DNA of 64,000 bases from Holothuria scabra (taxonomy: Eukaryota > Echinodermata > Holothuroidea > Aspidochirotida > Holothuriidae), in NCBI GenBank assembly GCA_037179385.1, contig CM074181.1:51279797-51343796 (forward strand), read 5' to 3'. The translations under genes and the position numbers were made by a program. The first letter of the stretch is position 1. Every line of letters starts with the position of its first letter. The notes under the pieces are model-generated. The model saw only the letters and a program-made list of their open reading frames with translations, had not been told where the DNA came from and ran no database searches. Of this stretch, positions 16,154 to 32,382 are shown one piece after another.

Positions 16154-16193
16154 TATATATATATATATATATATATATATATATAAATATATA
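16154..16193. repeat. (TA)n microsatellite
   Basis: TA run that the 3' end of the minus-strand arm of PLE-A runs into. Confidence 0.85.
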
Positions 16194-16361
16194 ACATGGT
16201 GAAGTCCGTGCGTTGGTGGAAAATAAATACACAAAATAAGCAGAAAAAGAGCAATGCCTCTGCCACCAACCAAGAAAAACAAAAACGATGGTACATTCTG
16301 TAATCCCGTGCTTTATAGATGACCAAAAAGCAAATAGTAACAAAATACAGAATATGTACAA

Positions 16362-16400
16362 ACTGAACGTTTCGAACCTCCTAGATTCCTTATCGACAGT
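16362..16400 (-). ncRNA. Hammerhead-ribozyme-like fold with altered core (PLE-A, minus copy)
   Basis: Inverted twin of 18214-18252, with identical sequence. Stem I is ACTG/CAGT, stem II GAATC/GGTTC closed by TAGGA, and GAAA is followed by the self-complementary ACGT. The CUGANGA box reads TCGATAA. Confidence 0.45.
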
Positions 16401-16450
16401 ATAATGGAAAGCTTAACAATGTTACGGAGAGGAAAGTACAAGCGACCTGA

Positions 16451-16978
16451 TCAGCGGTCACGCTTGTTGGCCATGAATGAAAGGTCACGGTTAAGACCGT
16501 GGACGTGACTCTCACACCTGAAGATTAGCCTTAATTCTTGTTTTTTACGAATCTCAGTTGTAGAAAAGCCTCCCATCAATATCGCGAATTTTAAATCGTT
16601 CACACTGTGGAGGGGTTTGTTGAAGTGTTCTGCGACAGGGAAGCCGGTGCTTTTGTTACGAATGCTAGATTTGTGGTTGTTGAATCTTAGCCTAAATCTG
16701 GAGGAGGTCTCACCTATGTAAGAGATCGTCGGACACTTGTCACACAAAAGAAGGTAAATGACATTGGAGGAATTACAAGAGTACGGGCCCGGTGATAATT
16801 GAATTCCCTTGGGGTGGATGTGCACTGTACGCTCTGTGATCATATGGTTGCATACTTGGCAACGACTACTACCACAAGGGAAATTACCTCTGGGAGGGGT
16901 AGCCAGGGAAGGATTGAGCTTGGTGTGAACCAAGATTCTGCGTAAACTGGGCGGTTGCTTGTAAGCAGTCGCCATGGG
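16451..16978 (-). pseudogene. PLE-A GIY-YIG endonuclease region, minus copy
   Basis: C-terminal part of a Penelope-type protein: an RT thumb/linker (PPSLRRILVHTKLNPS), a Zn-binding linker (CGSSRCQVCNHM, then H) and a GIY-YIG nuclease (NVIYLLLCDKC, YIGETSSRFRLRFNNH, AEHFNKP, ending MANKRDR). GIY-YIG enzymes nick target DNA to start insertion. The upstream RT should be fused in frame, but one base is missing in a C run next to the NEPP codons (about 16973), so the two parts are frame-shifted. The ATG of this frame is therefore internal to the original protein. The 3' UTR with a hammerhead-like fold follows within about 50 bp. Confidence 0.85.
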
Positions 16979-17640
16979 GGTTCATTGAAAATATCTCTGA
17001 TAGTGGGGTCTAGGCTGAGATTTCGCCACGAAGTCTTGATTCTTTTGAGTAGGGAGGAAAGTTTAGGGTTATAGGTAACTACAATGGGGATTCGTTTAGT
17101 TTCATTCCTGGCACGGTAACAAAGCAGATTGTTTCTATCTAACTGCTGGACCTTACTGAAGTAAGAGTCAATAAGTTTAAAAGGATACCCCCTATGTAAA
17201 AGGTATCCAGCAAAATCGACCATGTGTCGTAGTTGGTCGGCTTCGGTAGAGCAGATACGTTTGATTCTTAGGAATTGACTAAAAATGATCGAATGTTTGA
17301 TATGAGAAGGATGGAAACTGCCAAAATGTAGATAAGAATGACTGTCCGTGGGTTTTGTGAATAACGAAGTCTTAAGGCAACAGCCTGTGACATGCACAAC
17401 CGTGTCCAGAAACGGTAATTGAGTTTGTGAATATTCCATAGTGAACTTAATGGAACTATGAAAAGAATTTACAAAATCCTTGAACTTAAGTAATTCCTGT
17501 AGGCCGTGAGGCCAAATTAGAAAAATGTCATCGATGTAACGAACATAAAAAGAGGGTTTCTTGGGGAAAGCCTCGAGGAGGGGTTGCTCTAAAGAGGCCA
17601 TGAAGAGGTTAGCGTAACTTGGGGCCATCTTAGTACCCAT
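16970..17640 (-). pseudogene. PLE-A reverse transcriptase core, 5'-truncated
   Basis: The sequence begins at GTKMAPSYANLFM (RT motif B' region), followed by YVRYIDDIFLIW (catalytic RYIDD motif C), FLDTVVHV (motif D/E region) and SFHPSHIKHSIIFSQFLRIKRIC (thumb). It lacks the fingers and motif A because the copy is cut at the CCATGG junction at 17637-17642. The frame leaves the GIY-YIG frame near 16973 by a 1-nt indel. It would copy PLE RNA at a nicked target if intact. It is clearly inactive here. Confidence 0.85.
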
Positions 17641-18163
17641 GGCGACTGCTTACAAGCAACCACCCAGTTTACGCAGAATCTTGGTTCACACCAAGCTCAA
17701 TCCTTCCCTGGCTACCCCTCCCAGAGGTAATTTCCCTTGTGGTAGTAGTCGTTGCCAAGTATGCAACCATATGATCACAGAGCGTACAGTGCACATCCAC
17801 CCCAAGGGAATTCAATTATCACCGGGCCCGTACTCTTGTAATTCCTCCAATGTCATTTACCTTCTTTTGTGTGATAAGTGTCCGACGATCTCTTACATAG
17901 GTGAGACCTCCTCCAAATTTAGGCTAAGATTCAACAACCACAAATCTAGCATTCGTAACAAAAGCACCGGCTTCCCTGTCGCAGAACACTTCAACAAACC
18001 CCTCCACAGTGTGAACGATTTAAAATTCGCGATATTGATGGGAGGCTTTTCTACACCTGAGATTCGTAAAAAACAAGAATTAAGGCTAATCTTCAGGTGT
18101 GAGAGTCACGTCCACGGTCTTAACCGTGACCTTTCATTCATGGCCAACAAGCGTGACCGCTGA
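17639..18163 (+). pseudogene. PLE-A GIY-YIG endonuclease region, plus copy
   Basis: The 174-codon open frame differs from the minus copy by only a few residues (SSK for SSR, TPE for TTE). It starts exactly at the CCATGG junction, so it is a 5'-truncated element, not a free-standing nuclease gene. Zn-linker residues CGSSRCQVC and the YIGET and RFNNH nuclease motifs are present. No RT precedes it on this strand. Confidence 0.8.
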
Positions 18164-18213
18164 TCAGGTCGCTTGTACTTTCCTCTCCGTAACATTGTTA
18201 AGCTTTCCATTAT

Positions 18214-30050: not shown

Positions 30051-30071
30051 ACAAATAGTAAAAAATTGGTA

Positions 30072-30129
30072 AAACAAGAGCATATATTTAGCTTTCAGGA
30101 CCACCGGCCCCTTCCTCAGAAACGTGTTT
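30072..30129 (-). ncRNA. Hammerhead-like fold in the inverted head of PLE-B copy 2
   Basis: Inverted copy of the 32264-32321 fold. Core box and GAAA are intact on the minus strand. Confidence 0.45.
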
Positions 30130-30187
30130 AGACAACTAAAAGGCAAAACGAAAAACAGACACTATAAAACAACTACTATAAAATAAC

Positions 30188-32079
30188 TTTGAACTTGTTA
30201 TTAAGGAAGCTGACAAAGGTTCAGGGGTTGTCGTTATGGACAAAGAAAGGTATGTTAAAGAAGGCTATCGTCATTTGGGTGATGATTCTGTATATAAAAG
30301 GGTTGACAGCAGTTTTATTAGCAATGTTGAAAATGAAGCATCCTTGATGCTCCAGTCTTTGGTTAGCCAGAATGCTATTTCTGATGATATGTGTGAGTTT
30401 GCTACCCCCACTGATTCTAGAGCTGCCCGATTCTATCTTTTACCTAAGGTCCACAAAAATGGGGTGCCCGGGAGGCCCGTTATTTCTGGGTGTGGTTCTG
30501 CCACTGAGGGGATTTCAGAATTAGTTGATTTTTTTTATTAAACCCCTTGTGCCTACTGTTCCTTCTTATGTTCGGGATACAATGGACTTTCTTGATAAGT
30601 TACGTAAGCTTGGTCCCCTTCCCAAAGATGCTATCATCGCTACCATAGATGTGGTGTCTCTCTACCCCAGTATTCCTCATAAGGATGGGCTCGAAGCTCT
30701 TCGGAGTTTCTTGAGCAATAGACAACTCCCAACTCAGGTTGTTAGTGCTGTGTGTAAAATGGCTCATTTTGTCCTAAACAATAATGTCTTTGAATTTAAT
30801 GAAGAGTTCTTTTTACAAACCTCAGGTACCGCCATAGGTACTAAAATGGCCCCCTCTTATGCTAATATTTTTATGAGTGTGTTTGAGGAACAAGCGCTTG
30901 CGTCCTTTCCTTATAAACCAGACGTGTGGCTCAGGTTTATTGATGATATCTTTGTTGTTTGGACTGCGGGGTCTGGTAAATTTCTCGAGTTTATGGAGGT
31001 TCTTAATTCTCAGCACCCCAACTTAAAGTTCACTTTTGATTTTTCTTTTTCTACTGTTCACTTTTTGGATGTAACTATTGTTAAAAATGAAGCGGGTTTA
31101 ATCAGCACTGACCTTTATATTAAGCCGACCGACACCCATCAATTTCTTTTGTCTAACAGTTGTCATCCTGGTCATATTAAGCGTAGTATCGCGTATAGTC
31201 AAACTATGAGGATCCTTAGAATCTGTTCTAACCCTCAAACTGCAGTTCGTCGTTGCAATGATCTTGCCACATACCTTGTAAAACGCGGCTATAATCGACG
31301 TAAAGTTATGCAGCAGATTAAAAGGGCCCGTTCCAATTTTACCAGCCCCACCCATCCCCCAGCTAGTACTGAAGAGGAATACAAGAAGGTTTACTTTACT
31401 GTTGACTACCATCCGGGGTTACCTGATATTAGCGGCATTTTACATAAAAATATGTCTCTTCTCCATTGTTCTTCACTAATGAAGCGTGTTATTCCTCACC
31501 CCGCTGTTGTTAGCTTCCGTCATCCCCCGAATCTCAAAAAATTATTAGTCCGGGCTAAACTTAAAACTCCTCCCAGTCGGGGACCCCTGCGCACCTTGTA
31601 ATAAGAACAAGACCAAATCCTGTCAGTTGTGCGGTCTGCTTATTTGTAATAATTTTATTGTCAGTACTTCTTCTGGTAGAAAGTTCAAGTGCAGAAATTT
31701 TAATACTTCTTGTGATGCTAAATTGGTTATTTATTGTATCTTTTGTCCGACTTGTAATTATCAGTATGTGGGTCAAACTAATAACTTTAGAATCCGTATG
31801 AATGCTCATAAGTCAGATCTTTCAAAATGTGTTAAGGGTGGTTCTGATTTTAAACATTGCACAGAGCTTTACAAGCATCTCAAGGCACATTCACCTACCA
31901 AGTTCTATTTTCAGATTTTAGATGTAGTGCATTCTTCTCGCAATTCGGATAGGGATAATCTTTTGGATAAAAAGGAGAGGGAGTGGATTTGGAATTTGGA
32001 TTGTGTCTACCCAAAGGGTCTCAACATAAATGACGGTTTTAACTGTCAAGCCAAAAAACGACGTGCTCGTAGACTGTAG
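30188..32079 (+). pseudogene. PLE-B RT/GIY-YIG polyprotein, copy 2
   Basis: Pieces are 30236-30541 (RT1-RT2, YLLPKVHKNGVPGRPVIS), 30525-31601 (IATIDVVSLYPSIPHKDG motif A, GTAIGTKMAPSYANIFM, LRFIDDIFVVW, thumb) and 31627-32079 (Zn linker CQLCGLLICNN, VIYCIFCPTCNYQYVGQT, FRIRMNAHKS, DKKEREWIWNLDC, basic end KKRRARRL). Lesions are a lost residue pair at SELVD/FFY near 30530 and a run-length change at GGGGACCCC near 31585. The nuclease half is intact, unlike in copy 1. The two copies are broken at different points except for the shared weak spot near SELVD. Confidence 0.85.
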
Positions 32080-32263
32080 CCGCCTTTTTATCCCCTTTTA
32101 TGTCTCCTGCTTCTACTTAGCTTTTATCTCCTTTGTTAGGGTCCTAGTTTTTACATTTTATCTTTTGTGTTGGGTTGGGTCTGTTTTTAAATTTCTAGTA
32201 AGTGCATTTTTGCCTTTCATCCGTTTTATAGTGTCTGTTTTTCGTTTTGCCTTTTAGTTGTCT

Positions 32264-32321
32264 AAACACGTTTCTGAGGAAGGGGCCGGTGGTCCTGAAA
32301 GCTAAATATATGCTCTTGTTT
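32264..32321 (+). ncRNA. Hammerhead-ribozyme-like fold (PLE-B 3' UTR)
   Basis: The core CTGAGGA (32274-32280) fits CUGANGA. Stem II is AGGGGCC paired with GGTCCT (A-U, two G-C, G-U, one mismatch, C-G) over 32281-32296. GAAA is at 32297-32300, the palindromic stem III is AGCT, and the cleavage-site base is A32304. Stem I is short next to the core (TT/AA), with an outer AAACA/TGTTT (32264-32268 and 32317-32321) across an internal loop. It lies about 185 bp after the nuclease stop, farther than in the other families. Confidence 0.5.
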
Positions 32322-32382
32322 TACCAGTTTTTACTATTTGTTTTATGTTTTTACTGGTGTGGTGCTTTTCCATTTGGTTTAT

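Follow-up and report, generated by a model that had tools for sequence, protein, structure and literature searches.

We present here an analysis of Penelope-like elements (PLEs) in a 64,000-nucleotide (nt) stretch of the Holothuria scabra genome (GenBank assembly GCA_037179385.1, contig CM074181.1, positions 51,279,797 to 51,343,796, forward strand), referred to below as the window. Five PLE insertions (PLE-A, PLE-B1, PLE-D, PLE-C, and PLE-B2) lie between 16 and 33 kb of the window. PLEs of this kind probably insert by priming on both target strands, with the two complementary DNAs (cDNAs) of PLE-A and PLE-B starting one at each of two fixed sites. The genome sampled comprised 1.19 Gb in 31 contigs, and locus-wide reading covered 40 fetched PLE-A sites plus the window copy (L numbers here denote individual loci).

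The window copy of PLE-A consists of two arms joined head to head, delimited by arm alignment. The long arm (16193 to 17644, minus strand) is antisense and begins with one form of 3′ terminus, termed tail+; the short arm (17645 to 18387, plus strand) is sense and ends at the other, termed tail-. The arms meet at 17640 to 17650 and are 99.2% identical across 743 aligned nt. The tail is the stretch from the outer (tail+) to the inner (tail-) terminus; it occupies 16193 to 16222 on the minus strand and is found in the long arm only. As judged against a sister copy, L035, the long arm holds part of the reverse transcriptase (RT) and the GIY-YIG region. Tandem repeat scanning placed (TA)n tracts to the left of the element (16154 to 16193) and between it and PLE-B1 (18385 to 18448). 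The original prediction described inverted 3′ pieces and outward-facing ends in PLE-A, PLE-B1, and PLE-B2, and these were borne out (743 nt aligned in PLE-A, about 224 nt in PLE-B1, and 119 nt aligned in PLE-B2). Its layout for PLE-A was right as to the inverted pair and wrong as to the long copy, which it took to be sense.

PLE-A and PLE-B each have two fixed 3′ termini, 30 to 40 nt apart, the outer being tail+ and the inner tail-. When 1,001 bp of the PLE-A end was used as the query, genome matches began mainly at query position 1 or about 31. At the 40 fetched sites and in the window, (TA)n abuts ACATGGTGAAG... at the tail+ terminus and CACAAAATAAG... at the tail- terminus. The presence of two termini in PLE-A and PLE-B corresponds to the already known occurrence of PLEs with or without a tail. 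By a strict criterion, (TA)n adjoins 49 of 56 PLE-A 3′ ends at 41 sites, compared with a window background of 1.4%, which upholds the claim that the outer ends abut (TA)n; most of the 7 ends failing the criterion are still AT-repeat-like. In the head-to-tail PLE-A copy L049, the sequence beyond the tail+ site enters the N-terminal open reading frame (ORF), not (UA)n. The element continues past this site, as is reported for PAc (Poseidon, Anolis carolinensis). We infer that reverse transcription starts at these termini and that they are not RNA ends. The (TA)n target was originally thought to anneal to the RNA, with both ends at the same position; the fixed termini and the ORF read in L049 speak against annealing, and PLE-A and PLE-B use two different sites. 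RNA folds around the start sites were no more stable than those of shuffled sequences (z, -0.7 to -1.1). At the tail- termini of L020, L024, and L042, ACACAC lies between (TA)n and the terminus, as if by stuttering on a GUGU template at initiation.

Two-ended insertions were collected with patterns near the 3′ end. The PLE-A core pattern gave 116 matches, 100 of which were listed, and the PLE-A tail+ list is complete with 60 matches (at most 3 mismatches); the PLE-B core and tail+ patterns gave 394 and 287 matches, respectively, 100 of each being listed. Neighboring PLE-A matches up to 5 kb apart (100 of 116 core and 60 tail+ matches) formed 21 head-to-head pairs, 1 tail-to-tail pair, and 1 head-to-tail pair, and BLAST of fetched loci added three pairs (L018, L023, and L041) for 24 in all. 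PLE-B neighbors at up to the same distance formed 27 head-to-head and no tail-to-tail pairs (100 listed of 394 ends).

These pairs carry one start site per end. Unlike ends, one tail+ and one tail-, are present in 22 of 24 PLE-A pairs, none being tail+/tail+, and in 24 of 27 PLE-B pairs among the matches listed; the PLE-B2 pair of the window, which lies outside the list of 27, also has unlike ends. At PLE-A sites not wholly fetched, the tail- arms were read, and the tail+ state of six arms is a pattern match only. For PLE-B, 19 pairs combine an exact tail+ pattern match with another arm read as tail-, and both arms were read in 8 pairs. If sites were chosen independently, unlike pairs would make up at most half; 41 of 71 unpaired PLE-A ends are tail+, from which 49% is expected. 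Even at the maximum rate permitted by independence, the combined count of 46 unlike pairs out of 51 has a P value of 1.2e-9; without the four PLE-A pairs detected solely by the tail pattern and the three BLAST pairs, it is 39 of 44 (P, 7e-8). This suggests coupling between the two starts, for which the best explanation would be a single complex that uses the two sites together. The rule was not found in the open-licence papers searched.

No two of the 27 sequenced pairs (18 PLE-A and 9 PLE-B) share junction coordinates, in keeping with the predicted head-to-head joining of cDNAs at variable breakpoints. The PLE-A junctions have overlaps of 0 to 2 nt in 5 of 15 pairs and inserts of 1 to 249 nt in 10 of 15, with a mean overlap of 0.68 expected by chance; both were measured against one copy, so that insert lengths are inflated by private variants. 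Joining by microhomology, part of the original prediction, was rejected because these overlaps are near chance and inserted or fold-back DNA is often present instead. Short fold-back palindromes occur at the junctions of L018, L024, L042, and L099. They may be those expected from end joining with templated inserts and may be what one report (PMC3846280) took as a sign of self-priming. At the window PLE-A junction, microhomology is readable as CCCATGGC, and the long arm carries the junction sequence CATGGCGACTG, an extended form of it, at 16968 to 16990 (compare 17634 to 17660). At the 40 fetched PLE-A loci, CATGGCGACTG is found in none and the ordinary CAGTTACTG in 21; the long arm therefore looks gene converted by the junction, and the microhomology here is probably not original. 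PLE-A arm or truncation ends cluster at about 1,410 to 1,460 nt from the 3′ end (L009, L030, L031, L036, L047, and the window; judged without statistics), perhaps at an RT stop.

In 6 of 15 PLE-A pairs, the two arms have variants in common that no more than one further insertion carries (6 variants in L042, 4 each in L030 and L031, and a single one in L018, in L024, and in the window). For common variants, the arms match in 36 of 39 cells, where random pairing predicts 23.7.

PLE-D provides a built-in control for the role of the target. This fourth PLE forms a 5.7-kb palindrome between PLE-B1 and PLE-B2 (21608 to 27322) and is also inserted head to head, with an antisense arm of 3,046 nt (21608 to 24653, minus strand; RT ORF, 21940 to 23742) and a sense arm of 2,669 nt (24654 to 27322, plus strand) lying outside (TA)n. 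The arms are 99.5% identical over 2,669 nt, and RT is encoded in both. Among 100 listed of 122 PLE-D ends, 13 head-to-head and no tail-to-tail pairs lie within 6 kb. None of 20 outer ends, read at 10 of the 13 sites (longer clusters at four of these), is in (TA)n, and all 20 share a single terminus to within about 2 nt. Target duplications did not exceed the null at the sites examined. Head-to-head insertion thus requires no palindromic target and no second start site, and the self-complementarity of (TA)n, originally proposed as its cause, is not that cause. Judging from PLE-D, a single site may also serve as the start of two cDNAs.

Insertion by priming on both strands would begin with the element enzyme opening both target strands, at (TA)n for PLE-A and PLE-B. 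Each target 3′ end would then prime one cDNA on element RNA, presumably simultaneously, and the cDNAs, each stopping anywhere, would be joined 3′ end to 3′ end, probably by host repair, to give an inverted pair with its 3′ ends outward. In PLE-A and PLE-B, the two cDNAs would begin at different fixed sites, one site per target strand, and one RNA-protein complex would serve both strands. The outward 3′ ends, the two fixed termini, the one-of-each rule, the per-copy junctions, and, for pairs with long overlaps, the common source of the arms can be read in the sequences themselves, and the anatomy of the copies supports the original view that both target ends prime cDNA from the 3′ region. A more tentative proposal, possible but not one we would assert, is that a single asymmetric complex performs each PLE-A or PLE-B insertion, its two RT subunits occupying the pair of start sites on one RNA; the left and right target strands would then necessarily receive different start points. 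If so, the tail would be the footprint of a division of labor, and unlike ends would mark the use of one RNA for both strands.

Several observations weigh against priming on both strands. The exceptions to the pairing rule are two tail-/tail- pairs in PLE-A (L012 and L103) and three tail+/tail+ pairs in PLE-B, and the PLE-B tail+ list (100 listed of 287) holds two tail-to-tail neighbors, 104 and 157 bp apart, that do not appear in the PLE-B core list. PLE-A is one ended at 26 of 41 sites (15 tail+ and 11 tail-), from which either start site is able to act alone; 13 of the 26 also have (TA)n within 40 nt on the 5′ side (scored as 85% or more over 16 nt). The original prediction would have been undermined by a predominance of simple insertions, which is partly what PLE-A displays. 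As to common origin, no private variant is shared in 9 of 15 PLE-A pairs, mostly those with short overlaps, and gene conversion between arms could create some of the shared variants. In 11 of 15 pairs, the sister arm is not the closest relative, some arm from a different insertion being more similar; the exceptions are L024, L030, L031, and L044, which is very short, so the claim of a common source depends on the long-overlap pairs. The arms of L016 are 8.4% different and disagree at both informative sites, possibly reflecting two sources or two events; the third disagreeing cell (window, position 546) is probably a later mutation, because a linked site agrees. Arm lengths are weakly positively correlated and are near equal in 6 of 27 sequenced pairs, as fold-back or a shared RNA end predicts, although this comparison is biased by the choice of short PLE-B pairs. 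Finally, PLE-D pairs begin both arms at one identical site, and at 1 of 10 PLE-D sites (L113/L114) the flanks are themselves inverted and continue the repeat, as would fit fold-back or a palindromic duplication of larger extent.

The near-equal arms, the identical PLE-D ends, the inverted PLE-D flanks, and the junction palindromes all favor self-priming, in which one cDNA (or antisense RNA) folds back and is copied to its start to yield an inverted arm. We nevertheless regard self-priming as unlikely. Fold-back copies the end of the first arm, so that the ends should match; those of PLE-A and PLE-B mostly do not, a pattern that self-priming of one cDNA could not give. Among the 24 sequenced unlike pairs, the tail+ arm exceeds the other by over 20 nt in 12, the tail- arm is the longer in 6, and the two are within 20 nt in 6. 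Where the tail is found only on the shorter arm (6 of 24), it was not copied from the long one. Inspection by eye showed unlike flanks at 9 of 10 PLE-D sites, but for PLE-D, both ends of which are alike, self-priming is possible.

In L1 twin priming, the second cDNA starts internally, upstream of where the first stops, and the arms do not overlap. PLE-A and PLE-B resemble this system in that two cDNAs of opposite direction are joined together, and twin priming on one RNA with the second primer at a fixed inner site would fit both the single source of the arms in long-overlap pairs and a second start that differs from the first. It is very unlikely here, as the original prediction also held, because both arms start in the 3′ region, no more than about 40 nt from the 3′ terminus, and overlap inward from there to form an inverted repeat. 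Two independent one-ended insertions in one (TA)n tract would suit a favored target of this kind, and the PLE-A tail-to-tail pair C17 and the two pairs of the PLE-B tail+ list fit such an origin. As a general explanation it is highly improbable given the ratio of head-to-head to tail-to-tail pairs (21:1 for PLE-A and 27:0 for the PLE-B core among matches listed), the private variants shared in 6 of 15 PLE-A pairs, and the absence of (TA)n between the meeting arms in the 15 PLE-A pairs examined. Spread of a single rearranged inverted master, or later inversion and gene conversion, agrees with the apparent conversion between the window PLE-A arms and is scarcely credible, since the shared junctions that a master copy would leave, named at the outset as evidence against double priming, occur in none of the 27 sequenced pairs.

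Priming on both strands has a biochemical counterpart in PAc. In vitro, its enzyme cleaves each of the two strands and extends it, with synthesis beginning at a pair of neighboring internal sites that match the genomic tail (PMC11167929). PAc further resembles PLE-A and PLE-B in that its two internal start sites bound a tail near the ORF start and in its AT-rich cleavage; it differs in that the top and bottom strands had no start-site difference in vitro, and the text describes neither the pairing of sites per molecule nor an explanation of inverted arms (PMC11167929). Two reports (PMC3846280 and PMC8969392) describe PLEs with inverted pseudo-long terminal repeats (pLTRs), one of which may bear a tail. 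In the former, self-priming on an antisense template was proposed for rotifer Penelope elements, among them Pen2a of Adineta vaga, which is similar in its inverted pLTRs and optional tail. That account calls the tail optional, gives target site duplications of 8 to 10 bp in some copies, and proposes self-priming (PMC3846280); PLE-A and PLE-B, in contrast, carry the tail at exactly one end in 46 of 51 pairs and target (TA)n. Double priming as the origin of inverted PLE arms was not found in the open-licence papers searched. Inverted, tailed PLEs and two-strand cutting and extension by PAc are already known; the pairing rule appears to be new. How such insertions arise is treated as open in the cited PLE papers, self-priming being one published idea. 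A count of the start sites at each end distinguishes double priming from self-priming wherever a genome contains PLEs, ties the genomic tail to existing in vitro biochemistry, and predicts the per-molecule outcome of the PAc assay.

We take the RT of these elements to be of the PLE kind from its motifs. The RVT_1 domain was detected above the Pfam cut-off in PLE-B2 (E, 3.8e-9) and below it in PLE-D (8.3e-7), PLE-A sister copy L035 (9.3e-6), and PLE-C (2.2e-3). The RTs of PLE-D and PLE-C are 41% identical across 155 amino acids, and the PLE-D RT had no match among PDB sequences. GIY-YIG scored above the cut-off in PLE-B2 (E, 4.6e-6) and PLE-C (E, 4.1e-5) and slightly below it in L035 (E, 5.7e-4); none was detected in the PLE-D stretches scanned, and no Pfam domain was identified in a single PLE-A piece translated in one frame. 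Head-to-tail (pLTR) copies are represented by the PLE-A pair C13, in which the tail reads through to the ORF start (L049), and by PLE-D runs with units about 2.1 kb apart (100 listed of 122 ends); PLE-B had no head-to-tail neighbors among 100 listed of 394 core ends. Rfam found no hammerhead in window positions 15000 to 33300 (E up to 5) or in the PLE-A or PLE-B 3′ regions (E up to 10), a model from which minimal PLE versions may escape.

PLE-B1 consists of an inverted arm of about 224 nt with a tail- terminus (18445 to 18668, minus strand) and a sense body (18669 to 21594, plus strand) that stops at 21594, its 3′ end missing. PLE-B2 lies between (TA)n tracts at 29977 to 30050 and 32380 to 32491, both from the tandem repeat scan. 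Its inverted arm (about 30052 to 30175, minus strand) has a tail- terminus, and its sense arm (30176 to 32383, plus strand) encodes RT and GIY-YIG in separate frames and ends at a tail+ terminus, the tail occupying about 32346 to 32383 on the plus strand; the arms are 98.3% identical across 119 aligned nt. PLE-C (about 27323 to 29195, minus strand) encodes RT and GIY-YIG in ORFs at 27482 to 28714 and 28644 to 29216, the latter running into (TA)n at 29196 to 29213; the 27323 limit, beside PLE-D, is approximate.

Other repeats lie nearby. An element bearing a transfer RNA (tRNA) is present at 15237 to 15575 and 32492 to 32775, with the tRNA on the minus strand (Rfam, 50.5 and 52.7 bits) and a constant 3′ end in (TA)n. 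It has 1,686 matches genome-wide; the 100 listed are all on C1, and many of them form head-to-tail runs with a 369-bp step, and 48 listed matches lie at C1:29622775-29640863. One array end, read at L104, starts directly at (TA)n. No hammerhead was detected in the element by Rfam. It looks like a tandem short interspersed element or a retrozyme-like element, possibly moved by a PLE (compare PMC7229834). The flanks of L055, L079, and L030 contain pieces of about 12 to 25 nt from the 3′ end of this element, set between (TA)n tracts and resembling extreme 5′ truncations. A long hairpin at window positions 29814 to 29942 also lies between (TA)n tracts; its matches to microRNA models score under their thresholds, and part of it also adjoins a PLE-B end at L060. 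Near the second tRNA-bearing element, a 65-bp tandem repeat of about 4 units occupies 32841 to 33146.

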